A DNA stretch of 63,447 nt from positions 1-63,447 of the forward strand of contig JAHBNG010000083.1 of NCBI GenBank assembly GCA_019217005.1, given 5' to 3'. Shown here in pieces: positions 4,390 to 62,194 of the stretch. This DNA comes from Chloroflexi bacterium TSY. Lineage in GTDB: Bacteria; Chloroflexota; Anaerolineae; Caldilineales; Caldilineaceae. A model generated the notes under the pieces. The model searched no databases. It was not told the origin of the DNA and was given only the letters and a program-made list of their open reading frames with translations. Each line of letters begins with the position of its first letter. Positions within the stretch are counted from its first letter, which is position 1. Both the position numbers and the translations under genes were made by a program.

Positions 4390-4403
4390 GCTCAAAATAA
4401 AGG

Positions 4404-4481
4404 GAGTGTGTCCCAAAGTGTGTAAATGCAGCGGTTCTCCGACTGAGCAGTGTTCATTTACACACGTTGTGGTACATGCTC
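4404..4481. repeat. 78-bp palindromic repeat, family P1 (copy 1)
   Basis: Imperfect inverted repeat starting GAGTGTGTCCCAAAGTGTG and ending with its near complement (..ACACGTTGTGGTACATGCTC). The same 78-80-bp unit recurs at 13950-14027 and 37638-37717, with a solo end at 18005-18031. Flanks resemble a target duplication (AAAATAAAG on the left, GAAATAAAT on the right). No protein is encoded; it behaves like a MITE or REP-type element. Confidence 0.75.
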
Positions 4482-4498
4482 GAAATAAATAATCGTAA

Positions 4499-4809: not shown

Positions 4810-4842
4810 TAGAGAACGCTGCGCCATGTATGGCGACTTAGT

Positions 4843-4924
4843 GCTTATCCGAAAAGTTCTGTGACGAAGTATTCTCACTCGACAAGCTGATCGGACTCAC
4901 AACCACTTTTCGGATAGGTTCTTA
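4843..4924. repeat. ~80-bp palindromic repeat, family P3 (copy 1)
   Basis: Starts CTTATCCGAAAAGT and ends ACTTTTCGGATAGGTTCTTA, giving a 12-bp inverted repeat. A diverged copy lies at 46361-46440, sharing GGACTCACAACCAC and the ends. It ends 27 nt before the threonine synthase start and so lies in its leader region. Confidence 0.6.
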
Positions 4925-9153: not shown

Positions 9154-10308
9154 CTAGAACTGACTTTCTAATGCTCTATAGAGAGTGCCCCATTCAACCA
9201 ATGAAAGTGTCTGCGCCCGTCGCTTAACATCAATTCCAGCATGGTTCAATGCAACTGCAATCTGATCTTTGGAGAGATGCAACCCGCCATTCAAACTGTT
9301 GAGTAGTTGCTTGCGTTTCTGGCTGAATCCAGCTCGCACAATGCGAAAAAACTGAGTCGGATCTATATCCGGGATAGCAGGATTGTCGAGCAAGTCCAAA
9401 CGAAGAATGGCGCTATCAACCTTTGGGCGGGGATAAAAAGCTTGGGCTGGAACATAGTCGACAATTTGTGGGTGGCTATAGAGTTGTAAACTGACTGCAA
9501 GAAGCGACATGTTGCCGGGCGAGGCGCAGATCCGCTGTGCAACTTCCTTTTGCACCATCACAACAGCCCGTTGTGGTGGGTTGGGCGACTCAAATAAATA
9601 ACGGAGAACGGCATTTGTAATGTAATATGGCAAGTTGGCAACAACTTTGTAAGACACTTGACTATCGTGAGACACTGCAAAACCGTGCTCTGGGTGAGAA
9701 CGTGGTTGTGCTTGATCTGGCAGAGCTGTCGAAAAAACCATATCCTCATCACAATCGCAGCGAAAAGCAGATTTGTCTGGTTTCCTTGTTCCGAGAGCTG
9801 CTACAGGACTGTTTTGGGAGACAACCGGATAATCAAGCAGAGAATCTAGCGAGGTTTTGAGGATATCTCCATGAACAATTGAAACATGCGGTTCCGTTTC
9901 GAAACGTTTGTTTAAGATACTGACCAGGCGGTCATCAAGCTCGACAGCCACAATTCGCCCAGCCAATGTCGCTAGATAGTTGGTAAGTCCTCCTAGTCCT
10001 GGACCGATTTCAAGTACGGTGTCTTGCTTTGTGAGCTTTGCCGCCGCAATTGCTGTTTCCAGATAGGATTCGTCAATGACGAAATTCTGGCCGAGTGATT
10101 TTTTCGGTTTTAGGTCAGCGCTTCGGACATAGTCAAAAACATAGGATTTCTTATCGTGATCAATATTTCCAGTCGCTCGACTCGTTTGTCTATCAATTCC
10201 TGAGACCAAAAGCTGACGGAGCTCCCGGCCACCTTTGCTGCTTTTTTCCGTCTCTTTTTTTGGGGCTGGTTCAGAAATAGGTTGACAAAGAAGAGAGTAC
10301 GTTAACAA
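9154..10308 (-). CDS. rsmA: 16S rRNA adenine dimethyltransferase RsmA/KsgA with an insertion and an IS-altered 5' end
   Basis: Dimethylates two adjacent adenines in the 3' terminal hairpin of 16S rRNA, using S-adenosylmethionine. Diagnostic motifs are 'KKSLGQNFV', the SAM loop 'VLEIGPGLGGLT' and the catalytic 'NLPYYIT', with a usual C-terminal domain ('FYPRPKVDSAILRL'). About 60 extra residues (Ser/Asp/His-rich, encoded near 9640-9830) interrupt the fold just before 'YKVVANLPYY'; family members normally lack them. The first ~17 codons of the open frame come from the end of the 1,633-bp IS, whose target duplication ends at 10262. The native start was either lost or is a downstream codon such as TTG at 10209. 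It precedes the LuxR-kelch gene; lepA lay directly upstream before the IS insertion. Confidence 0.9.
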   Translation of the reverse strand: MLTYSLLCQPISEPAPKKETEKSSKGGRELRQLLVSGIDRQTSRATGNIDHDKKSYVFDYVRSADLKPKKSLGQNFVIDESYLETAIAAAKLTKQDTVLEIGPGLGGLTNYLATLAGRIVAVELDDRLVSILNKRFETEPHVSIVHGDILKTSLDSLLDYPVVSQNSPVAALGTRKPDKSAFRCDCDEDMVFSTALPDQAQPRSHPEHGFAVSHDSQVSYKVVANLPYYITNAVLRYLFESPNPPQRAVVMVQKEVAQRICASPGNMSLLAVSLQLYSHPQIVDYVPAQAFYPRPKVDSAILRLDLLDNPAIPDIDPTQFFRIVRAGFSQKRKQLLNSLNGGLHLSKDQIAVALNHAGIDVKRRAQTLSLVEWGTLYRALESQF

Positions 10309-10388
10309 GAGAATAGGTTAGAGAAAGAGGCTCCTGTTCAGGCAAAATAAGGGTGTTCAGACCAAAATAGCCAAAAAGGAGCCTCTAA

Positions 10389-10544
10389 ATGTCAGAGTAT
10401 CGAACAGACCCCCTATCATTGTCAACCCGAATCGATCTTGCGTTGGAAATGCTCAACCCGAATCGAGAGTGGGGGAGAGTGAGCGAACTGTCAACGGCGT
10501 ACAATGTGTCTCGAACGTGGCTCTATAAGTTGAGAGAGCGGTGA
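10389..10544 (+). CDS. IS ORF1: short helix-turn-helix protein (5' part of transposase)
   Basis: A 51-codon ORF beginning MSEYRTDPLS and ending in 'SRTWLYKLRER' before TGA. The last half reads as a helix-turn-helix ('SELSTAYNVSRTWLYKL'). The stop codon directly overlaps the +1 frame that continues into the transposase body: CGG-T-GAA. A +1 shift at this stop would give a fused protein of about 478 residues. The arrangement is the same in both IS copies. Confidence 0.6.
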   Translation: MSEYRTDPLSLSTRIDLALEMLNPNREWGRVSELSTAYNVSRTWLYKLRER

Positions 10545-10563
10545 AGCGGCGCTGAAAGCGATC

Positions 10564-11826
10564 TTGTCGCCAGTGAGTCCAGGACCGCAGCCGAAAAGCC
10601 ATGTGATCGAAGTGGATGAGACGTTCATCCGACGAACCATAACGGTGTTGCCGATGCTGCGAGGAAGCGTACGAGATATCCAAAGGGGGTTGGGGTTGCT
10701 GCTAGGTGTGGAGCGGTCGGTGGGATTCATCCAAGGGACGCTGGCGGAAGTTGGAGAACTGGCATCGGCGTACAATGAGAGCATGGTGCCGACGCTGCCG
10801 GTGTTGGGGGAAGCGGATGAAATTTTCTGTGGCGACCAACCGTGCCTGACGGTGGTGGACGGAGCATCGTTTGCGCTGTTGAATATCTCAGCAGCCGATG
10901 CCCGAGATGAAACAACATGGGGGTTGAAGTTTCTCGAATTGCTCGAGCGAGGCATCACCTTTGATGACTTGGTGACCGATGGGGCTTTGGGCATTCAGGC
11001 AGGAGCCAAGGCAGCGGGGATGAATGCGCCACACTCCTATGACCTCTTTCACCAAATGCAGAATGGCACCAAAATCACCCAACGTCTGGAGAGAGAAATG
11101 GACCAGGCCATGACCGACCGTGACGTAGCTTGGCAAGTGTTGGACGAGCAGACTGCTCCTGCACGTCGCCCTGGGCGACCACGCAAATGCACAGTGACTC
11201 TCGAGGTTGCCGACCAAACGGTGCTGACAGCAGTTGACTTGCACGAGAACTGGACATGGCTTCTCCGAACGGTCCGTCAGGCACTGGAGCCGATTTCACC
11301 GACCGGGCAGCTTGTCAACACAGATGCCGCGCAACAAACCATTCTGGCTGCCACCCAACTTATGATGGAGATGAACCGCGATGAAATTGCACACTTTGCC
11401 ACCCAACTGCAGCAGAATCTACCTACATTGCTGGCTCCCCTCCGCCAGAACCTCTCACCTGAGTACGAAGCCTTCATCACACACCTCTGGACTTATCGCC
11501 ATGACCATCAACTTCCCATTGAACAGCTTTTCCCTCCCTCATTGCAGCCTATGGCTCTTGCCTTCTGGCATGCACTGGATCGCTTCCATCGGGCTTCTTC
11601 TCTAGCTGAATCCTTTCATGCTTGGCTCAGGCCCTTTCTTGCAATCCATCGCTCTTTGCCCGATTGGTTGGCCGCTCTTTTACAGCTCTTTTGGAATCAT
11701 CGCACCTTCTCACGTGGCAAACGCTCCGGTCACTCACCCTTAGAACTGGCTACCGATTCCTATGTCCCTTCTTTGGCTGACGCCCTTGATGCCATTCTTC
11801 AGCCTCAACAGCAACTGGCTCTTTAA
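10564..11826 (+). CDS. IS ORF2: DDE-type transposase
   Basis: A 420-residue reading from the TTG at 10564; the frame is open from 10525. It shows a plausible acidic triad: Asp in 'GEADEIFCGDQPC' or 'VVDGASF', Asp in 'LVTDGALGIQ' and Glu in 'LAESFHAWLRPF'. A basic linker 'ARRPGRPRKC' lies mid-protein. The absence of a normal start and the upstream HTH ORF in the other frame suggest it is made as a frameshift fusion. The transposase family is not recognised with certainty; a distant ISKra4/ISNCY type is possible. Confidence 0.75.
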   Translation: MSPVSPGPQPKSHVIEVDETFIRRTITVLPMLRGSVRDIQRGLGLLLGVERSVGFIQGTLAEVGELASAYNESMVPTLPVLGEADEIFCGDQPCLTVVDGASFALLNISAADARDETTWGLKFLELLERGITFDDLVTDGALGIQAGAKAAGMNAPHSYDLFHQMQNGTKITQRLEREMDQAMTDRDVAWQVLDEQTAPARRPGRPRKCTVTLEVADQTVLTAVDLHENWTWLLRTVRQALEPISPTGQLVNTDAAQQTILAATQLMMEMNRDEIAHFATQLQQNLPTLLAPLRQNLSPEYEAFITHLWTYRHDHQLPIEQLFPPSLQPMALAFWHALDRFHRASSLAESFHAWLRPFLAIHRSLPDWLAALLQLFWNHRTFSRGKRSGHSPLELATDSYVPSLADALDAILQPQQQLAL

Positions 11827-11935
11827 CCTATTCTCTTTTTAACGTGCCCATTTCAATTTTGTAAACCTAACTCATCCCTTGTTCTGAACCTGCCCTTTTT
11901 TTGCTCGTTTTTTTGAACGAGTACGAGAATTGCTT

Positions 11936-13753: not shown

Positions 13754-13949
13754 TATTATAGCCTAGTCTAGGGCAAGGGATGAAATGGTTTGTATTGCGT
13801 ATTGCGTGTTGCGTTCCGTTGTCGCTAGGCAGAGCGAACCCAATCGCCAACGGGCGACACCATTTCATGAACGGCGGGTTCAAGGCAAGGCTCCAGTTGA
13901 AAGATTGCTCGGGGTGCTAGAGACACCACTTAAACTTTGGAAACAATCG

Positions 13950-14027
13950 GAGTGTTTCCAAAAGTGTGTGAATGCAGCGATTCTCTGACTGAACAGTGTT
14001 CATTTACACACTTTGTGGTACACACTC
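13950..14027. repeat. 78-bp palindromic repeat, family P1 (copy 2)
   Basis: Starts GAGTGTTTCCAAAAGTGTGTG and ends with the complement ..ACACACTTTGTGGTACACACTC; the same length as copy 1 at 4404. It lies between lepA and the SDR gene at 14108. The remainder of the gap (13754-13949) holds short tandem-like TTGCGTATTGCGTGTTGCG sequence and no gene. Confidence 0.75.
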
Positions 14028-14107
14028 GACAATTTTGGACAGTTTTCTGTTGAGACACAATTGTCCGACGTTTAAATGATGTAACTATAGGGTGGGTGAA
14101 ATGATCT

Positions 14108-16628: not shown

Positions 16629-16783
16629 GGGGTGGTTCATTTTAGCTGGATAGATAGGTTTACACTTTTAGAAACAGAAAGAACGTTTATATTCTCTGAT
16701 TTCGCCGGTTCTCAGAGAGAAAACGGTCTCATATAGATTTTTGTCTATATATCAAAAGTGTAAACCTAATTTTGAACCACCCC
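16629..16783 (+). repeat. 155-bp GGGGTGGTTCA MITE, copy 1 (duplication TATTTTAG)
   Basis: Perfect 11-bp ends GGGGTGGTTCA / TGAACCACCCC with a longer imperfect inverted repeat containing AGGTTTACAC. The 8-bp duplication TATTTTAG is at 16621-16628 and 16784-16791. It lies between convergent genes. Copies at 19841 and 62040 look identical, and the copy at 50424 is diverged. The ends resemble those of the 1,633-bp IS. Confidence 0.93.
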
Positions 16784-18261: not shown

Positions 18262-19813
18262 ACTCGATAGTTGTATTTTGAGCAGGTGCCGGATTTGACA
18301 AAGTCAAAATTAAGCAGAGCAGGCCTGCTGTTTGGCGAAAAGGGTAGCGAAGACCTCTGCAATCTCCTGTCCGTCATTCAAGGCATGATGTGCAGTCAAG
18401 ATGAGATCTTGAATTAGTGACTGAGCTTGCTGCCGAGTAGCCTCACCAAGGGATTTGCTGGGCGAGAATTGAGTTTTAGCCAATGATGGTCCCAAACAAT
18501 CAAGGTGCAAGAGAGAATAAGCCACGAAGACCAGAGACCAATGTTTTGAAAGGCGTGGCAGTTCGCATGCAATATTCATCAAGGCCAAGCAGTTGTTTAC
18601 CATCCTGATAAACCGTCTCGATAGGCCAACGAAGCAGGTAAATCGAGAGAATGCGTTTGGCATTACAATCAGTGCGATTGGTCACTAAAACGGCCTAATT
18701 GCCTTGCAATTCAGGATTATCAAAACTAATCACGATGCGTACCTTGCCGATAGAAGGGATACGCACAGTCATGGTAAAGGTATAGTAAGTACGACCATCA
18801 ATGGTGACAGGTTTGTAGGCATTCTGGGGGATGTAGGGGACCAACTCTTTGACTTTAATATGTGGCCCCTCGAAAGTTATCGGCTGACCGTCTTCATCTC
18901 GCAAACGAAAGCTATTTGTCTCCAGATTGCGATTGCACTTCAAGATGCTGATCCAATCTTTATTCAGACGATCGAGTACAGCTAGAAGATCTGGAGCGAG
19001 ATACCAACCATCGAAGAGAGCCCAACCAAAGATAAGGGTTCGTTCAACAGCTTTTTCAACCAGTTCACTGGCAATGGTTATCTTGGTCTTAAACGCTTCG
19101 TCTAGCCCTCGAAAGGCGGGGTCAGTTAATAGGTGGCTATCCACTCGTTTATGAAAAGCGGTTCGTTCTTTCTTTTTCTTGGGAATCTCAGTCACTGGAA
19201 ATGGTTTTCCACAAATGCTTCCCAGTCGGTAAACTCTTCGTACCGTCGGTAGATACTTGCATCGACCGGAAAACGAACAGCGCCACTGACATAGTGACTT
19301 GTGACTAAGTTATGAGCCAGTGGATGCTGACCATTGCTATGATTGTAGTGTGTATCGATATACTCGAACAGACTTCCCACGTGTTCACATAGTGTATCGT
19401 CAATCGCTAATACCGATTCTGACTCTGAACGTTGGTATTGTGCTGTCTCTGACTTCATGTAACCTATACGCTCATCATTGAGTTTTTCGGCTCGCCAAGG
19501 AGCTTCACTCAAATACCGTGATATATTCGTCTTATCTGCACTATCTAGAATGCAGCGGGCAATATTTGCCATGCTTTTGTTGTCCAAGACCATCAGACCC
19601 GTCAGATAGTTTTCAAAGTGGCGAAACTGTTTACGATTGGCAAATACTGAACGAAAGGTTTCGCTATGCTCCCTGACCAGTGGCGCTACATTCACTATCG
19701 GCAATTGCATCTTGATGGCTCCTTTTTCGCACTTTTTTCTTGATGCAATCTATTGAGATGACTTTTGTCTCTTTTGTCAAATTTGGAAAATATTCATTTC
19801 ACAACTATCGAGT
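18262..19813 (-). mobile_element. Decayed IS701/IS4-like insertion sequence (about 1.55 kb)
   Basis: Terminal inverted repeats ACTCGATAGTTGT (left, 18262) and the same sequence in reverse at the right end (ACAACTATCGAGT, ending 19813). A subterminal TTTGACAAA block is conserved in both arms. It encloses one transposase gene broken in several places. A clear target duplication was not found. Confidence 0.75.
18302..19710 (-). pseudogene. IS701/IS4-type DDE transposase, broken by frameshifts and a stop
   Basis: The coding order runs from 19710: 172 codons ending '..EAFVENHFQ' at 19192, a shift of frame to 'MTEIPKKKKERTAFH..' (GTG overlap at 19195), and an in-frame TAG near 18693 ('NPELQGN-stop-AVLVTNRTD'). 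'IYLLRWPIETVYQDGKQLLG' follows, then another frame change before 'HWSLVFVAYSLLHLDCLG' and an end '..AKQQACSA'. Family landmarks are 'IDDTLCEHVG' (first catalytic Asp), 'FDGWYLA' (second Asp) and 'RWPIETVYQDGKQ' (Glu). With at least two frameshifts plus one nonsense codon it cannot make an active transposase. Confidence 0.85.
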
Positions 19814-19840: not shown

Positions 19841-19995
19841 GGGGTGGTTCATTTTAGCTGGATAGATAGGTTTACACTTTTAGAAACAGAAAGAACGTTT
19901 ATATTCTCTGATTTCGCCGGTTCTCAGAGAGAAAACGGTCTCATATAGATTTTTGTCTATATATCAAAAGTGTAAACCTAATTTTGAACCACCCC
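19841..19995 (+). repeat. 155-bp GGGGTGGTTCA MITE, copy 2 (duplication TTATTTTT)
   Basis: Same sequence as the element at 16629 as far as I can see by eye. TTATTTTT occurs at 19833-19840 and 19996-20003. It lies 27 bp beyond the end of the decayed IS and about 110 bp upstream of the ArsR-type regulator, in that gene's likely promoter region. Confidence 0.93.
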
Positions 19996-37637: not shown

Positions 37638-37717
37638 GCAGTGTGTTCCAAAGTGTGCAAATGAAGACCGCCTAGTCAGAGAGCCCGCTCCATTTACACA
37701 CTTTGCGGTTCACACTC
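37638..37717. repeat. 80-bp palindromic repeat, family P1 (copy 3), flanked by a direct repeat
   Basis: Arms GCAGTGTGTTCCAAAGTGTG and the complement ending CTTTGCGGTTCACACTC. GAATATGAA occurs immediately before the element (37628-37636) and immediately after it (37718-37726), the best target duplication in this family. It lies in the leader of the quinone oxidoreductase gene. Confidence 0.8.
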
Positions 37718-46242: not shown

Positions 46243-46360
46243 AGTTGAACTCGATTTAAAAGTAATGCTTCGACAAAGGTAGAAGCGTGTAGAGCCACTA
46301 TTTTTCGGTTGGTATCACACAACCCGTTGTGATGCAAGACGGAGGTCACACCCCTTCGTG

Positions 46361-46440
46361 CTTATCCAGAAAGCTCTGCGACAACGCATTCGTACCAGAG
46401 AAGCCGGTTGGACTCACAACCACATTTCGGATGGGTTCTT
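46361..46440. repeat. ~80-bp palindromic repeat, family P3 (copy 2)
   Basis: CTTATCCAGAAAGCTCTGCG ... GGACTCACAACCACATTTCGG..GGTTCTT matches the element at 4843-4924 at both ends and in part of the centre. It abuts the end of the ThDP enzyme gene, overlapping its stop codon region. Confidence 0.6.
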
Positions 46441-48013
46441 AATATACACGCTCCATCATCCCAACCGGCACTTCGATCAATGTGGGCTGGTCGAGTACAA
46501 TCGCTGAGCGCAATGCTTCTTCTAACTGGCTTGCCCCAGCTGCCCGTATGCCATGCACACCATACGCCTCGGCCAACTGCATAAAATCGGGATTGTATAG
46601 CTCTGTTCCAATTACGCGTTCATCGAATTCTTCTATTTGCGCCCGCAATACGTTTCCATAGGCATTGTCGTTGAAGACGATCGTGATAACATTGATGCCC
46701 TGCTGCACGGCTGTAGCTAATTCTTGGGAATTATAGAGAAAGCCACCGTCGCCTGAAAGTGCCACCACCGCACGCTTTGGTTGCGCAATCTTAGCACCCA
46801 TCGCCACCGGCAACGCACAGCCCAATGTGGCATGAGATGAAGATGTTAGATAGCTTCGAGGCGCAAACACAGGATAATAATTGCGGCTATAATATCCCAT
46901 CTGGTTCATACCTTGAATCAGAATGGCATCATCCGGTATAGCAGATCGGATTGCCATCATCAGATCCCACTGTGGTTGTAATTGTCCAGTGGGTGCAAAT
47001 CGTTGTCGATTTAGAGCCTGCACTTCGGCTTGAACGGCGGATTCGGTAACAGCATTTGGTACTCGCTCCTGAATGGCATCCAGAAGCAACTCCAGCGCCA
47101 CTTTAGCATCCGCCTCAATGGCGTAAACAGCCTCTTGATGACCCTCAAGCTCAGTGGGATCGATATCGATTCGGATGATCTGCTGTGGAAACGAGGCTAG
47201 ACTTCCACTTGTTCCAATTGCCAGAATCAGATCTCGCTCTGTGAGCCAGTCGCGCAAAGGAGTAAAGCGCAATTCAGCCATCCCCAACGAGAGCGGGTGA
47301 TTGTCGGGCAGAACGCCCTTGCCCTGACGGCTTGTGACAACCGGAATTTGGAGATGTTCAACAAGTGATTGTAACGCATCCCAGGCTGCTGCGCGCTGGA
47401 TGCCACCGCCAGCCCAAATGAGTGGTCGCTGAGCAGAGACTAAGAGATCGGCAGCCTGAGCTATCTGATTTTCTTCGGGTTCCTTTGGCTCTACCTTCTC
47501 CCGATCGAGCAACAACACATCTTCAACTGCAGCAAAGACCTGCGGTGGAATATCGAGCGCCACCGGACGTGACCGACCTGTACGTAACTGTCGCACGGCT
47601 TCATGTACGAGACTTGGAATCTGAGCCGGAGTGTCGGCCCGTGCCGCCCATTTGGTCAAACCGCGCATCGCGATCATCTCAGGGCTACCCTCTGGTCCTT
47701 GATCGCGCGATCCCGTAATAACCAGTATTGGTGATGAAGCTGCATATGCCGTGATCATCCCCGCTGTTGCATTAAAGAAACCTGGCCCCGGCACAAGAAG
47801 AGCTGCTGCAATTTCTCCACTGGCACGTGCATACCCGTCGGCCATATAGGTACTGGCCTGCTCGTGACGCAAACTGATATAACGGACATCCGACTCCAGA
47901 TAGAGCGCATCAATCGCTTCATATTGACCGGCACCAGGAACGCCAAAGACCGTTCTTATTCCCTCGCGCCGAAGTTGCTGAATAAGTGCTTGACCACCTG
48001 TTAAATTTGGCAT
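46439..48013 (-). CDS. Thiamine diphosphate-binding enzyme (acetolactate synthase-like)
   Basis: ThDP-dependent decarboxylase/synthase of 524 residues. The catalytic Glu is in 'YISLRHEQAST' (about 51), the middle domain has 'WAGGGIQRAAAW', and the cofactor motif is 'LSGDGGFLYNSQELATAV..NDNAYGN' (GDG to NDN). It resembles the acetolactate synthase large subunit, but the length (524 rather than 560-600) and the absence of a small subunit suggest a catabolic member such as a benzoylformate- or sulfopyruvate-type enzyme. The adjacent gene, on the same strand and downstream, is the PfkB kinase 196 nt away. Substrate unassigned. Confidence 0.85.
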   Translation of the reverse strand: MPNLTGGQALIQQLRREGIRTVFGVPGAGQYEAIDALYLESDVRYISLRHEQASTYMADGYARASGEIAAALLVPGPGFFNATAGMITAYAASSPILVITGSRDQGPEGSPEMIAMRGLTKWAARADTPAQIPSLVHEAVRQLRTGRSRPVALDIPPQVFAAVEDVLLLDREKVEPKEPEENQIAQAADLLVSAQRPLIWAGGGIQRAAAWDALQSLVEHLQIPVVTSRQGKGVLPDNHPLSLGMAELRFTPLRDWLTERDLILAIGTSGSLASFPQQIIRIDIDPTELEGHQEAVYAIEADAKVALELLLDAIQERVPNAVTESAVQAEVQALNRQRFAPTGQLQPQWDLMMAIRSAIPDDAILIQGMNQMGYYSRNYYPVFAPRSYLTSSSHATLGCALPVAMGAKIAQPKRAVVALSGDGGFLYNSQELATAVQQGINVITIVFNDNAYGNVLRAQIEEFDERVIGTELYNPDFMQLAEAYGVHGIRAAGASQLEEALRSAIVLDQPTLIEVPVGMMERVY

Positions 48014-49980: not shown

Positions 49981-50633
49981 TTAAGGCCAACTTTCGCTGT
50001 CTGTCTTACTAAGAACCTCTGCGATCAACTTATCATCCAATCGGAAATCGACTGCGCGTAATTGGTGAAGGACTTGTGCAGCAGATAGAATGAGCTCTCG
50101 TTGACGCGCTAGAATGATAATCCCATGCGTACCTTTGACGGAAACGCCAAAACTGCGTGCACATTGGCGTGCTGCTCCGTCATCGATAATGGCAGTCCAA
50201 TCTGGATGTGTAAGTGCATAGGAAATGACGGCGGTCTCGCCTGCACCTAAATCCCATGCAAGTAACTCCGGCGATGGTGTGGGTGTAACGACTGTTGGCC
50301 ACTTTACAATCTCGTTTCGGCCACGATCCTCTATGGGGCCAGCCGCAATTTCATCAACGACGGCGGAAGGAACGAGAACGTCATCAGCTAAGGCAGAGAG
50401 CAATGATTCTAAATGAATCTTGGGGGGTGGTTCATTTTAGGCGGACAATTAGGTTTACATTTTTGCAAAGAGAAAAGATGTTTATATTTTCTACTTTGAG
50501 CCATGCTCAGGCAGAAAATGACCTCAATATAGATTTTTATCTATGTATCAAAAGTGTAAACCTAATTCTGAACCACCCCAATCTTGGCTAGTACAATGAA
50601 GGGGGAGGCATTGACCACCCATCGTTCAGCCAT
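49981..50633 (-). pseudogene. DUF3368 PIN-like toxin gene interrupted by a MITE
   Basis: The toxin partner of a UPF0175/DUF3368 toxin-antitoxin pair. The start ATG (50633) overlaps the antitoxin stop (GATGGCTGA). It reads 'MAERWVVNASPFIVLAKI' to 50580, is then broken by the 156-bp MITE, and resumes at 50415 with 'HLESLLSALADDVLVPSAVVDEIAAGP' (in part) to 'DSESWP' at 49981. Removing the MITE plus one 8-bp duplication restores an exact 162-residue frame. PIN-type acidic residues are visible ('AVVDEI', 'LGAGETAVI', 'AIIDDGAAR'). The present gene cannot make the full protein. Confidence 0.9.
50424..50579 (+). repeat. 156-bp GGGGTGGTTCA MITE, diverged copy 4 (duplication AATCTTGG)
   Basis: Same ends and architecture as the 155-bp copies but clearly diverged in the interior. 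AATCTTGG flanks it at 50416-50423 and 50580-50587. It is inserted within codon 18 of the DUF3368 toxin gene. Confidence 0.93.
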
Positions 50634-55477: not shown

Positions 55478-55785
55478 CCCTACCCAAAAAACTCTAACCA
55501 ACCTCCGATAGCCTGCACTTCGTGACAGGCGGATCGACACAGAAAACAAAAAGGCCACGGTCCCTATTAGCAACCGCGCCCCTTTTGCATTCTTGCGTTC
55601 AACTACTATCAACCCAGCTCAAAAAGAGAATACCACGCATATCATACGATCAAAGGCGCATGAAATGCGAGTGCGTCACACACCCATGTGTTTAGATGGT
55701 ACAGAAAAAGCGCCTGCTCGGGGGAAACCACGCGCTCTTAATGATGTACACTCATTCTCAAAGATCGTTCGAGTATAGAACGCTA
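55478..55785. other. Gap before the IS630 element
   Basis: No gene recognised. AACCGCGCCCC/GGCCACGG-rich and AT-rich patches only. Confidence 0.35.
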
Positions 55786-56569
55786 GTACAAAGCGGCGTA
55801 AATAGTTACGCAGATAGAGCCTTGCCTTTGTAGGTCCACTGGAAAGGCTTAGCCATAGTTTGGTTGTAGTAGTCAATGAAAGCAAAGACTCTGTTGCGTA
55901 AGTCATCAAGAGAAAGAAAAGAACCTTTGCGCAATAGCTTGCGAACCAAAATGCTAATCCAGATTTCAATCTGATTCATCCAGGAAGCATGTTTAGGCGT
56001 ATAGTAGAAAACAATGCGATGTTCTGGGTTGGACAAGAACTCGGCTCGAGTCTGCATGGATGCCAAGATGCCAGATTTGCCTTTGACACCCAGATCACAG
56101 GTAATGTCCGACTCAGCGGCAACGTAGCGAACAGGAGATTCGGAGCAATGGATGTTGAGATTATCAACCACGATATGCCAGCGTTTGATGTGAGGGTGTG
56201 CCTCAACCATCTGGCGAATATGTTCAACGTAATCGTGCTCGGTGCGGGTGGGTTCAGCAGTGACCCAGAGAATGCCACCCAAGGCAACATTGAATGTCAG
56301 AATAAAGGCTAAGGTGCCATGACGGATATACTCATGCTCAATGAGACGGTCTTTGCCAGGGGCAGTTGGACGATCGGGATATTTCCTTTCGAGGGCTTGA
56401 ACCCCTGTCTTTTCATCGTTGGAAACAACGAGTTCACCCTTCTGCGCCAGTTCAGAAGCGCGTGCATAGAGCTCATTGATGGTTTGGCTCTTTACCTCAA
56501 AGAGTTCATCCTTGGGCGTATTTTGCCAGTAGCGACTCATATGGGGCCGAATTGATGCATCTTTTTAAA

Positions 56570-56673
56570 CAGTAGCAGCAAAAGTCGGGTACAAATTTTT
56601 CATGCAAACAGAGGGCTGCTCTAGGATTTCACCCCTTATGGTCATTTTTTGTACCCGACTTTTGCCGTAGCTG
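56570..56673. repeat. 104-bp MITE inside the IS630 transposase (7-bp duplication TTTTAAA)
   Basis: The arms CAGTAGCAGCAAAAGTCGGG and its near complement (..CCCGACTTTTGCCGTAGCTG) share AAAAGTCGGGTACAAA exactly. TTTTAAA flanks both sides (56563-56569, 56674-56680). Confidence 0.8.
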
Positions 56674-56852
56674 TTTTAAAAGCCTCGCCGCATGTCTGGG
56701 TGAGATACTTTCTACTATTGTTTTTGACAAAAAGAAAGCGGTTCTCCCGCATTTCTAGATGTTGTTGGCGAACCTCTTGGCTAGAGATCGAAGGGAGTTT
56801 CTGATACGATAAGAGGAAAAAGACAAAAGATGCAGTGAAAGGAGCCTCCCTC

Positions 56853-58495
56853 ATGAGCTTACAGATAGAGCCGCTTCAGCCAGTGCCCGAACTAACAGAG
56901 AGTGTCGCCAGAGCCGCGTTTCCGCAAGGCAATCCGTATCTTGACCTACGTGATGAACTGGGAACTATTTACGAAGATACCCTCTTCACTGAACTATACT
57001 CGCATGAGGGCCAGCCAGCTGTAAGTCCGTGGCGATTGGCACTGGTCACCGTACTACAATTTGCAGAGAACTTGCCGGATCGGCAAGCGGCTGATGCTGT
57101 TCGCAGTCGTATCGATTGGAAATGTGCGTTGGGACTGGACTTAACGGATCCCGGATTTAACTATTCAGTTCTCTGTGAGTTCCGCCAACGGTTGATCGAA
57201 GGCGAAGCGAGTGAGATATTACTCGACCGCTTGCTACAGTTACTGAAGGAACAAGGCGTTTTGAAGGGTCGAGGTCGTCAGCGTACCGATTCGACCCACG
57301 TCCTAGCCGCCATCCGTGAACTCAGTCGTCTGGAACTCGTGGGCACCACCGTTCACCACGCCCTCACCACGCTGGCAACTGTCGTACCCGAGTGGTTAAG
57401 AAGCGTTGTCCCGCCCGAATGGTCACAACGCTACGATAGACGTTGGGAGGACTATCGGTTGCCCAAGACAGAAGCCGAGCGTCTGGCCTTGGGCGAAGAA
57501 GTGGGCAGGGATGGGATGTTTCTGCTTACCGCTCTCTATGGACCCGATGTGCCGTCGTGGCTGCGGAACATACCGGCTGTCGAACTCCTACGCTGCGTTT
57601 GGGTGCAGAATTTCTACCAGGACGATGGTCTGCTCCGATGGCGCCGCGCCCAAAATATTCCCCCCGCAGCCAAGGCGATCTGTTCTCCGTTTGATGCTGA
57701 GGCGCGTTACAGGATCAAACGGCAGACAGAATGGACGGGATATAAGGTTCATCTCACTGAAACGTGCGACCCCGATGCGCCGTTCCTTATCACCCACGTC
57801 ACCACGAGTCCAGCGACCGAACAAGACAATGAAATCGTACCGCTCTCCATGAAACCCTTGCTGCCAAGGGGCTGCTGCCTCGGGAACATCTCCTTGATCA
57901 GGGATACAGTGATAGCCATCTCTTGATTGAGGCACACGATGAGTACAAGATGGAAATGCTCATGCCTATGCGTAGCGATAAGAGTTGGCAGACCCAGGCC
58001 GCTAACGGCTATGATCTGAGCTATTTCCAGATTGACTGGGAGGCACAACAAGTGACCTGCCCTCAGGGCAAAGCGAGTGGTTCGTGGGCGCTCAGGCAGG
58101 ACAAACAGGGATATCCACGCTACGAAGTCATGTTCAACGCAGCCGATTGTGGTCCATGTCCGGCCTGGGACTTGTGTACCAAATCCAAACGCCAGCGGCG
58201 CAAACTCACCTTTCGTCCTCAACACGAACACGAACTTATACAAGCAACTCGAACCTATCAGCAGTCTGATGAATTTCAGGCACGATCTCGCACGCAGGCT
58301 GGTATCGAAGGCACGATCTCGCAAGCCGCCGCCTTAGACATGCCCCGTACGCGCTATTGCGGGACCGCCAAGACTCATTTGCAGCACGTTGCCACAGCAA
58401 CCGCCATTAATATCAAACGACTCGTCAATTGGTGGAATCGCCTGCCTATCGCCCAAGCAAAGCCTTCTCGCTTCGCTGCACTCATGGCTGCTTGA
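56853..58495 (+). pseudogene. IS1182-family transposase with one frameshift
   Basis: AAGGAG lies 8 nt before ATG 56853. 'MSLQIEPLQPVPELTESVAR', 'VSPWRLALVTVLQFAENLPDRQA' (in part), 'LCEFRQRL', 'RQRTDSTHVLAAIREL' (first Asp), 'TGYKVHLTETCD' (second Asp region). At about 57839 one base is missing: the frame after 'NEIVP' should continue 'ALHETLAAKGLLPREHLLDQGYSD' (in part, next Asp), and reads on in the +2 frame through 'TQAGIEGTISQAA' (Glu) to 'FAALMAA' at 58495. Restored length is about 547 residues. As sequenced it is inactive. Confidence 0.85.
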
Positions 58496-58634
58496 GTTCG
58501 CCAACAACGGGCTGGTTCAGAAATAGGTTGACAAAGAAGAGAGTACGTTAACAAGAGAATAGGTTAGAGAAAGAGGCTCCTGTTCAGGCAAAATAAGGGT
58601 GTTCAGACCAAAATAGCCAAAAAGGAGCCTCTAA

Positions 58635-58790
58635 ATGTCAGAGTATCGAACAGACCCCCTATCATTGTCAACCCGAATCGATCTTGCGTTGGAAATGCTC
58701 AACCCGAATCGAGAGTGGGGGAGAGTGAGCGAACTGTCAACGGCGTACAATGTGTCTCGAACGTGGCTCTATAAGTTGAGAGAGCGGTGA
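58635..58790 (+). CDS. IS copy 2 ORF1: helix-turn-helix protein
   Basis: Same 51-codon ORF as at 10389-10544, ending in TGA that overlaps the +1 transposase frame (CGG-T-GAA). Confidence 0.6.
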   Translation: MSEYRTDPLSLSTRIDLALEMLNPNREWGRVSELSTAYNVSRTWLYKLRER

Positions 58791-58809
58791 AGCGGCGCTG
58801 AAAGCGATC

Positions 58810-60072
58810 TTGTCGCCAGTGAGTCCAGGACCGCAGCCGAAAAGCCATGTGATCGAAGTGGATGAGACGTTCATCCGACGAACCATAACGGTGTTGCCGA
58901 TGCTGCGAGGAAGCGTACGAGATATCCAAAGGGGGTTGGGGTTGCTGCTAGGTGTGGAGCGGTCGGTGGGATTCATCCAAGGGACGCTGGCGGAAGTTGG
59001 AGAACTGGCATCGGCGTACAATGAGAGCATGGTGCCGACGCTGCCGGTGTTGGGGGAAGCGGATGAAATTTTCTGTGGCGACCAACCGTGCCTGACGGTG
59101 GTGGACGGAGCATCGTTTGCGCTGTTGAATATCTCAGCAGCCGATGCCCGAGATGAAACAACATGGGGGTTGAAGTTTCTCGAATTGCTCGAGCGAGGCA
59201 TCACCTTTGATGACTTGGTGACCGATGGGGCTTTGGGCATTCAGGCAGGAGCCAAGGCAGCGGGGATGAATGCGCCACACTCCTATGACCTCTTTCACCA
59301 AATGCAGAATGGCACCAAAATCACCCAACGTCTGGAGAGAGAAATGGACCAGGCCATGACCGACCGTGACGTAGCTTGGCAAGAGTTGGACGAGCAGACT
59401 GCTCCTGCACGTCGCCCTGGGCGACCACGCAAATGCACAGTGACTCTCGAGGTTGCCGACCAAACGGTGCTGACAGCAGTTGACTTGCACGAGAACTGGA
59501 CATGGCTTCTCCGAACGGTCCGTCAGGCACTGGAGCCGATTTCACCGACCGGGCAGCTTGTCAACACAGATGCCGCGCAACAAACCATTCTGGCTGCCAC
59601 CCAACTTATGATGGAGATGAACCGCGATGAAATTGCACACTTTGCCACCCAACTGCAGCAGAATCTACCTACATTGCTGGCTCCCCTCCGCCAGAACCTC
59701 TCACCTGAGTACGAAGCCTTCATCACACACCTCTGGACTTATCGCCATGACCATCAACTTCCCATTGAACAGCTTTTCCCTCCCTCATTGCAGCCTATGG
59801 CTCTTGCCTTCTGGCATGCACTGGATCGCTTCCATCGGGCTTCTTCTCTAGCTGAATCCTTTCATGCTTGGCTCAGGCCCTTTCTTGCAATCCATCGCTC
59901 TTTGCCCGATTGGTTGGCCGCTCTTTTACAGCTCTTTTGGAATCATCGCACCTTCTCACGTGGCAAACGCTCCGGTCACTCACCCTTAGAACTGGCTACC
60001 GATTCCTATGTCCCTTCTTTGGCTGACGCCCTTGATGCCATTCTTCAGCCTCAACAGCAACTGGCTCTTTAA
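58810..60072 (+). CDS. IS copy 2 ORF2: DDE-type transposase
   Basis: 420 residues, identical to the product at 10564-11826 except for one Val-to-Glu change ('AWQELDEQ' instead of 'AWQVLDEQ'). The preserved frame in both copies argues that the two-ORF layout is functional and not a random mutation. Confidence 0.75.
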   Translation: MSPVSPGPQPKSHVIEVDETFIRRTITVLPMLRGSVRDIQRGLGLLLGVERSVGFIQGTLAEVGELASAYNESMVPTLPVLGEADEIFCGDQPCLTVVDGASFALLNISAADARDETTWGLKFLELLERGITFDDLVTDGALGIQAGAKAAGMNAPHSYDLFHQMQNGTKITQRLEREMDQAMTDRDVAWQELDEQTAPARRPGRPRKCTVTLEVADQTVLTAVDLHENWTWLLRTVRQALEPISPTGQLVNTDAAQQTILAATQLMMEMNRDEIAHFATQLQQNLPTLLAPLRQNLSPEYEAFITHLWTYRHDHQLPIEQLFPPSLQPMALAFWHALDRFHRASSLAESFHAWLRPFLAIHRSLPDWLAALLQLFWNHRTFSRGKRSGHSPLELATDSYVPSLADALDAILQPQQQLAL

Positions 60073-60430
60073 CCTATTCTCTTTTTAACGTGCCCATTTC
60101 AATTTTGTAAACCTAACTCATCCCTTGTTCTGAACCTGCCCCCAACAACATCTATAAATACGGGAGAACCCCTTTTCGTTTGAGCAGTTCGTCGGCGATT
60201 TCTCGTCCTGTCCATTCGCTGTTGGGACGTCCGCACTTCTCTGGTGACTCACAGGCCAAGGCTTCCAGTTGGCATCTTTGGTCTGCCGTGATTACAGACG
60301 GTGCCCCAGGACGGGGCAGGTCTTCCAACCGCTCTTTCGCTGTGAGTTCTTCCAGCGGTATCGCTTCTAGAGCGAGCCATCTCTTTTTCCAGTTGAAGAC
60401 CGTTTTGCGAGACACGTCGACTTCTAGGCT

Positions 60431-60645
60431 CAGTAGATCCAAATTTGGCGTTTTTGGCTATTTTCAGTCGAGATTGCAGGGATTTTGGAGTCATTTATTC
60501 AGATTTCGGTTACAGGAAACAACCTATTTCATATCTGAAAATCGCCCAAATCTAACGCAAAAACTAGATATCGACCAGCAAATTTGTATTTATGTCAACT
60601 GTTTAGCCAGAATTCTCTCTCAAAACCTGAAATTTGGATCTACTG
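60431..60645. repeat. 215-bp MITE inside the IS630 transposase (5-bp duplication AGGCT)
   Basis: Ends CAGTAGATCCAAATTT and AAATTTGGATCTACTG are a perfect 16-bp inverted repeat. AGGCT occurs at 60426-60430 and 60646-60650. Removing it rejoins 'GTIS' to 'LEVDVSRKTV' in frame. Confidence 0.88.
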
Positions 60646-60893
60646 AGGCTAATTGTCCCAGAATCTTTCCCCGCAGCTGCGCTCACAATTATCTGCGCTC
60701 GCTTGACCATCTGTTGGCCCGTTGTGTGGCCCTTTACTAACTGCTCTAGACCTTCTTTCGCTTTTGGGCTTAGTTCGATTTTTTCAGCTTGTGGACCTGG
60801 CATCTCTTTTTCTCCTTCTTTGGGAGATTATCGATGCCTCCAGTTTACATAACTCCTGTAATTATCTATGTAATCATTTGTGCCTTTCTGTAC

Positions 60894-61342
60894 TAGACCA
60901 TGTGCGGGTTCTATGGAAGTCGTGCATGGTGATGGATCAAATTGCACTGTCGCCTATAGTCTAGATGCAATCTGCACTGTACAGCCCCACGCGAACTAAC
61001 TACCTGTCATGTATGTTAGCATACGGTTGGATAGACAGGCACCACCATCTGGATTATCTCGAAACTAGTCAAATCGGTAGTGTCAAATTCCTTTCTTACT
61101 TGTCGAATGGTGGACATCGGATCTGGCATCCACCATTCAGCATGCTACACTGGACTCCCTTCTTGCCTTGTAAACGCTATCTGCCTCTTTGATCTGGCTC
61201 GCATTCAGATTCAGTAGACCGCAATCGTTAGATTCTTCACTCCGTTCGAGAATGACACGATTGCGGTCTACTAAGATTCGTTTTCCCTGAGTCTGTCATA
61301 GAATCCCTGTACGAAAGTCCGAACTCAACTTCGACGTAAATC
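60894..61342. other. Gap right of the IS630 nest
   Basis: Apart from the P5 palindrome at 61213-61272 no gene, RNA or element is recognised. Confidence 0.4.
61213..61272. repeat. 60-bp palindromic repeat, family P5 (copy 2)
   Basis: AGTAGACCGCAATCGTTAGA..CTTCACT and the other arm AATGACACGATTGCGGTCTACT. It is the reverse-orientation relative of 38750-38830 with a 21-bp shorter centre. Confidence 0.65.
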
Positions 61343-61623: not shown

Positions 61624-62040
61624 TTACAGTTCACGAAGAATACTTCTTTGAAGCTCGTCAGGCCAGGTGGTTGCCACCAAGCTACTATCGTTGAGTTTTG
61701 GAGTCGTCTTCCAGGGTAGCCGTCCGCTAATGCCCATTTCCAGCGTTATGCTTAGAAAGGCGCGGATGACAACGATGATCCCCAACACCATGACGCTCTC
61801 AATCGTGTGGGATACAACCACAGTCCTAATGATGTCGCCAGCAATCAGAAAGTCCAACCCCAGAATAATGGCGTGGCCAAAGACACTTCGGAAGTCATTG
61901 TATGCAGTCGACGGCCCGCTGCGGCTTATCATGTAGAGGAAGCGGGCTGTTGCAACAACGCTGCCTGCGACAATAACGAACACGCCGAGAAATTCAATTG
62001 CGTAACCGAGGATTCGCACTAGTTCTTGCAAGTCGTTCAG
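61624..62040 (-). CDS. DUF1622 membrane protein whose ATG was split by a MITE
   Basis: About 138 residues with three or four transmembrane helices ('AIEFLGVFVIVAGSVVATARFL', in part; 'IILGLDFLIAGDII', 'VMVLGIIVVIRAFLSITLEME'-like), matching DUF1622. Without the MITE the gene would begin ATG AAC GAC TTG CAA GAA with the A at 62203. The MITE went in between the A and the TG, so the sequence now begins CTG AAC GAC (62040-62035); TTG at 62031 is another possible start. Expression may persist from CTG or be lost. The upstream MDR gene overlapped this gene's start. Confidence 0.85.
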   Translation of the reverse strand: MNDLQELVRILGYAIEFLGVFVIVAGSVVATARFLYMISRSGPSTAYNDFRSVFGHAIILGLDFLIAGDIIRTVVVSHTIESVMVLGIIVVIRAFLSITLEMGISGRLPWKTTPKLNDSSLVATTWPDELQRSILREL

Positions 62041-62194
62041 GGGTGGTTCATTTTAGCTGGATAGATAGGTTTACACTTTTAGAAACAGAAAGAACGTTTA
62101 TATTCTCTGATTTCGCCGGTTCTCAGAGAGAAAACGGTCTCATATAGATTTTTGTCTATATATCAAAAGTGTAAACCTAATTTTGAACCACCCC
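62040..62194 (+). repeat. 155-bp GGGGTGGTTCA MITE, copy 3 (duplication GTCGTTCA)
   Basis: Identical by eye to the copies at 16629 and 19841. GTCGTTCA is at 62032-62039 and 62195-62202. It breaks the start codon of the DUF1622 gene and changes the C terminus of the MDR dehydrogenase. Confidence 0.95.

Follow-up and report, generated by a model that had tools for sequence, protein, structure and literature searches.

The 63,447-nucleotide window considered here (the whole of the analysed stretch, contig JAHBNG010000083.1 of Chloroflexi bacterium TSY, a sponge symbiont) contains, toward its right-hand end, a nest of mobile elements. The outermost is an insertion sequence (IS) of the IS630 family; it carries two inserts that resemble miniature inverted-repeat transposable elements (MITE1 and MITE2) together with an IS1182-type element, and the IS1182-type element carries in turn a 1,633-bp IS, designated IS-C (Table 1). 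A sequence-only reading of this DNA had proposed these five nested elements, and all five have been located on the sequence with the flanking repeats ascribed to them. With a per-base match chance of 0.25 in the nest region, bases at any one given position would agree exactly with a chance of ~1e-3 over 5 bp, 6e-5 over 7 bp and 1.5e-5 over 8 bp. Since these chances are low and terminal inverted repeats adjoin every one of the duplications, the layering is not the product of chance. Subtraction of the inserts restores the family-typical sizes that had been claimed (~1.32 kb for the IS630 element and ~1.81 kb for the IS1182 interval).

Table 1. Mobile elements of the nest, their open reading frames (ORFs), and related elements elsewhere in the window (TIRs, terminal inverted repeats).
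Feature	Position	Strand	Remarks
TA target	left 55784-55785, right 60894-60895		
IS630-family element	55786..60893	-	~1.32 kb own sequence, three direct inserts; TIRs, TA, DDE_3, ordered pieces
IS630 transposase, C-terminal piece	55806..56540	-	244 aa
MITE1	56570..56673		104 bp; ends CAGTAGCAGC / CAGCTACGGC; strong hairpin
Left outer arm	56728..56756		29 bp; outside IS1182-homologous end; forms GGTTCTCCCG-ATTT hairpin with right arm
IS1182-family element, by homologous ends	56757..60153	+	interrupted by inner IS
IS1182 transposase, N-terminal ORF	56835..57926	+	363 aa
IS1182 transposase, C-terminal ORF	57923..58495	+	190 aa; other frame
IS-C (inner IS)	58509..60141	+	1,633 bp; 8-bp duplication CCAACAAC at 58501-58508 and 60142-60149
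IS-C upstream ORF	58635..58790	+	51 aa; weak HTH_29, E 0.082
IS-C catalytic ORF	58810..60072	+	420 aa
Right outer arm	60154..60178		25 bp
MITE2	60431..60645		215 bp; ends CAGTAGATCCAAATTT; exact 5-bp duplication AGGCT
Second IS-C copy	10263..11895	+	duplication TTTTTTTG; between lepA-like and rsmA-like genes
155-bp MITE, IS-C-type ends	16629..16783		duplication TATTTTAG
155-bp MITE, identical	19841..19995		duplication TTATTTTT
156-bp MITE, diverged (~81% identical)	50424..50579		duplication AATCTTGG
155-bp MITE, identical	62040..62194		duplication GTCGTTCA

The outer element has the TA duplication of the IS630 family, imperfect terminal inverted repeats (GTACAAAGCGGCGTAAAT / GTACAGAAAGGCACAAAT) and a transposase that matches Pfam DDE_3 at 80.5 bits (cut-off 28.6) and, in two pieces, NCBIfam NF033545 at 95 and 38.7 bits, each piece alone falling below a cut-off of 100 that is set for the whole protein; these matches uphold the family label. 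It differs from the family in being split by three inserts. That the pieces of the split transposase rejoin in order is confirmed by alignment, without splicing, to intact relatives, one of which spans all of the pieces. Residues 1-51 and 54-136 of the relative P0218 (404 aa) correspond to 60803-60651 and 60424-60176, and residues 134-153 and 152-404 to 56730-56671 and 56564-55809, so that the matches follow the genome through the junctions of MITE2, IS1182 and MITE1; the order is no different with a second relative (P0125, 403 aa), whose matches extend slightly into the inserts. Short matches (60-80%) to parts of the IS630 and IS1182 elements also occur in 19 plasmid records.

The reading frame of the IS630 gene bears on each of its three inserts. 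MITE2, whose ends are identical over their first 16 bases, keeps the frame intact together with its 5-bp duplication (by coordinate arithmetic, as for the other inserts). The duplication ascribed to MITE1, TTTTAAA, is present as an exact 7-bp repeat and places the IS630 pieces one base out of register; read as 8 bp long with a single mismatch (TTTTTAAA / TTTTAAAA), the duplication keeps them in frame and thus suits the gene better. The pieces that flank the IS1182 interval fall 2 nt short of register, and a further frame break must therefore lie at the IS1182 junction or close to it. MITE1 and MITE2 each occur once in the window, which is the DNA that was searched for their copies.

The nest would have arisen by successive insertions of unrelated mobile elements into DNA that was already mobile, in an element-rich bacterium of the Chloroflexota type: the IS630 element would have inserted at a TA, the IS1182-type element and the two MITE-like elements would then have entered it, and IS-C would have inserted into the inner end of the right terminal repeat of the IS1182-type element. 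The order of these events, which had been thought directly readable, is so only in part, in that the IS630 element precedes its three direct inserts and the IS1182-type element precedes IS-C, but the mutual order of MITE1, MITE2 and the IS1182-type element cannot be read. It is very improbable that the nest is an assembly artefact, with repeats wrongly joined and the whole not representing one molecule. The two IS-C copies of the window are nearly identical (one mismatch in 1,633), which is a classic cause of misjoins; however, each copy is flanked on both sides by its own matching 8-bp duplication, which a swap between copies would have destroyed, and this argues against a misjoin between the two. 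The IS630 pieces on either side of the nest, moreover, match one protein in order.

The IS1182 label is likewise upheld, by Pfam matches to DUF772 (58.9 bits, cut-off 23.1) and DDE_Tnp_1_6 (88.2 bits, cut-off 25.1), and by NCBIfam NF033551, the profile of IS1182-family transposases, on both pieces (171.8 and 98.1 bits against a whole-protein cut-off of 270, covering profile positions 8-295 and 329-488). The ends of the element resemble those of relatives. The two ORFs match residues 1-350 and 321-554 of the relative P0242 in different frames, with a frame break near 57.8-57.9 kb that no insertion accounts for.

The claim that every layer possesses its own target duplication holds for the IS630 element, both MITE-like inserts and IS-C, but is doubtful for the IS1182-type element. 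The interval that had been assigned to it, 56728-60178 with TTTGA at 56723 and 60179, reaches beyond the boundary at which its relatives end. In 13 of 20 loci with relatives at 46-53% identity, a 4-6-bp direct repeat abuts ends of the type TGATACTGTTGGCGAA; at the remaining 7 there is no direct repeat there or no row was obtained. The corresponding ends in the window, at 56757 and 60153, have no direct repeat, and TTTGA appears only beyond two further inverted arms, in which the element is unlike its family. These outer arms may be longer terminal repeats in this lineage or a separate palindromic insert. The latter would make the nest one of six layers, in which the arms are a palindrome that duplicated TTTGA on insertion and whose hairpin the IS1182-type element then entered without a duplication, and to this we assign nearly even odds. 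The inner boundary, at which relatives end and the window element has no direct repeat, and the strong pairing of the arms favour it, as does the report in PMC5678879 that IS1272 targets inverted repeats without duplication and that some IS1182-family members target palindromes. IS1272 is also reported to replace its target hairpin, however, whereas the arms persist here. Arms and ends together form a near-continuous inverted match of 34 bases (31/34), which also fits a longer terminal repeat, and searches for further copies of the arms found none in the window, in 71 loci, in viral contigs or in 395 genomes, the last of these searches being made without a positive control.

IS-C belongs to a family with conserved ends. 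A scan of genome contigs with a protein alignment, A1 (24 rows, numbered on the 489-aa relative P0001), yielded 29 loci with relatives, 16 of them from one Anaerolineales metagenome-assembled genome (MAG), H5_CFX5, and the others mostly Chloroflexota by title, with one Gemmatimonadetes and one Actinobacteria. Both ends were found by motif at 23 loci (6 are without an end pair), and an exact 8-bp direct repeat flanks 18 of the 23 and none of the other five. The single MAG H5_CFX5, which has ten copies of the family identical over 1,653 bp, contributes 14 of the 18. Among 400 genomes of the phylum, IS-C DNA matched 2 and A1 matched 9 at E 1e-20, no more than 3 candidates being scored in any one genome; a plasmid search gave 4 records with distant relatives. 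When the IS-C ORF itself was used to scan for close proteins, neither viral contigs nor genome contigs yielded a confirmed relative. Two of the proteins matched in the searches come from Chloroflexi bacterium TSY, an unclassified member of the Chloroflexota, which makes this bacterium or close kin the probable source of the window: P0003, whose cluster has 54 member sequences, matches 70% of its query at 100% identity, and P0121 matches 88% at 95%.

IS-C is not recognised by two standard libraries, Pfam and NCBIfam: the catalytic ORF of the window has no Pfam match, and its score against the NCBIfam IS256 model (NF033543) is 17.4 bits, far under the cut-off of 150. Searched against PDB sequences, A1 found just three matches, all at the level of chance. 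Several features nevertheless suggest a DDE transposon of the IS256/Mutator-like kind that would make 8-bp duplications. D144, D198 and E418 of P0001 are invariant in 24 of 24 A1 rows, and on the predicted secondary structure they would fall in β1, after β4 and in a helix, which is the order in p-MULT/Mutator-like transposases (D in β1, D after β4, E in or before α4). The insert between the second D and the E is all-helical, a D-x-x-H follows the second D, and the duplication flanking the two window copies and the 18 related loci is of the 8- or 9-bp class of these elements. The structure nearest to the predicted fold of an IS-C relative is the transposase of ISCth4, an IS256-family element. 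By analogy, the chemistry of IS-C would be that of IS256. IS-C departs from this kind, besides its low IS256 score, in the spacing of the motifs: 219 residues separate D198 and E418, and the invariant D219-x-x-H222 lies 21 aa after D198, as against a helical insert of 99-138 aa and a C/D(2)H motif 11-19 aa after the second D as reported in PMC3942029. That paper was the only one to turn up in a literature search on Mutator-like elements (MULEs), IS256 and new IS families in Chloroflexi.

The transposase gene of both window copies of IS-C is interrupted by the same frame break. Residues 1-50 of P0001 align with both copies in one frame and residues 50-485 in a different one, and the copies are ~10 residues short relative to P0001; in 22 of the 24 A1 rows a single frame continues across the position of the break, the other two being the window ORF and P0002, which is without the first part. 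Because a broken copy has inserted twice independently, its movement must have involved either help or frameshifting, unless gene conversion later spread a break of single origin. The spread of these copies thus probably needed transposase supplied in trans, or frameshifting. Programmed frameshifting that yields a full transposase is an unlikely substitute for movement in trans. The break is common to both copies and P0003 starts at the start residue of the window's downstream ORF, so the broken form may itself have spread; and the ISMich2 group (ISKra4/p-MULT 4), which resembles IS-C in its reported 8- or 9-bp duplications, has a transposase made from two ORFs by a -1 frameshift, according to PMC3942029. 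The usual gene of the IS-C family, however, is one ORF, the break lying in the window copies; the shift needed here would, by frame arithmetic, be +1 (or -2) instead of the usual -1, and the ~10 missing residues also count against it.

The probable reach of the IS-C-family transposase extends to smaller elements. Four 155-156-bp elements of the window have the termini GGGGTGGTTCA / TGAACCACCCC, and each is flanked by an exact 8-bp duplication; three of the four are identical. Being short, with terminal repeats, target duplications and several copies, they are MITEs, and they have TTAGGTTTACA in common with the right end of IS-C. Mobilisation by an IS-C-family transposase is the most likely origin of their spread. 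Their sequence pattern was found in 0 of 390 sampled genomes of the phylum; a scan of 5 genomes, likewise 0, carries no weight, since the gap range it allowed would overlook even the copies of the window.

Taken as a whole, the account of successive insertions, with IS-C as an IS256/Mutator-like element and with MITE mobilisation, has in our estimate a probability of roughly 0.88. The nest is correctly described but ordinary, nested ISs being commonplace; it illustrates how old mobile DNA serves as a harmless landing site for new insertions, which is already well known. A more useful by-product is a transposon family that goes unrecognised in Pfam and NCBIfam. Its ends are defined, its 8-bp duplication is consistent and a plausible MITE partner accompanies it; its proteins are annotated "hypothetical protein" where they are named (e.g., P0003) and are likely overlooked in Chloroflexota genomes. 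The broader proposal is tentative, and we hold its chances to be somewhat below one in two: that IS-C represents an undescribed Mutator/IS256-like family (as judged by Pfam and NCBIfam only), centred on the Chloroflexota, with an unusually long helical insert and MITEs of its own, whose broken copies multiply through supply in trans or a +1 frameshift.

Other features of the window may be noted briefly. The rsmA-like ORF (RrnaAD, 185.5 bits, - strand) contains at 9652-9825, just before YKVVANLPYYITN, an in-frame stretch of ~58 residues that looks insert-like by eye and has no other copy in the window. An Rfam search returned a single tRNA only, and no drug-resistance genes were noticed in the ORF lists, no search aimed at them having been made. 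Two adjacent ORFs at 18695-19710 (- strand) match DDE_5 at 23.1 and 34.8 bits (cut-off 27) and are probably a decayed transposase. A hairpin-forming repeat of ~70-90 bp, perhaps another MITE family, occurs at 4395-4483, 13941-14029 and 37649-37717, and a second, of 88 bp and 80% identical between its copies, at 4837-4924 and 46354-46441.

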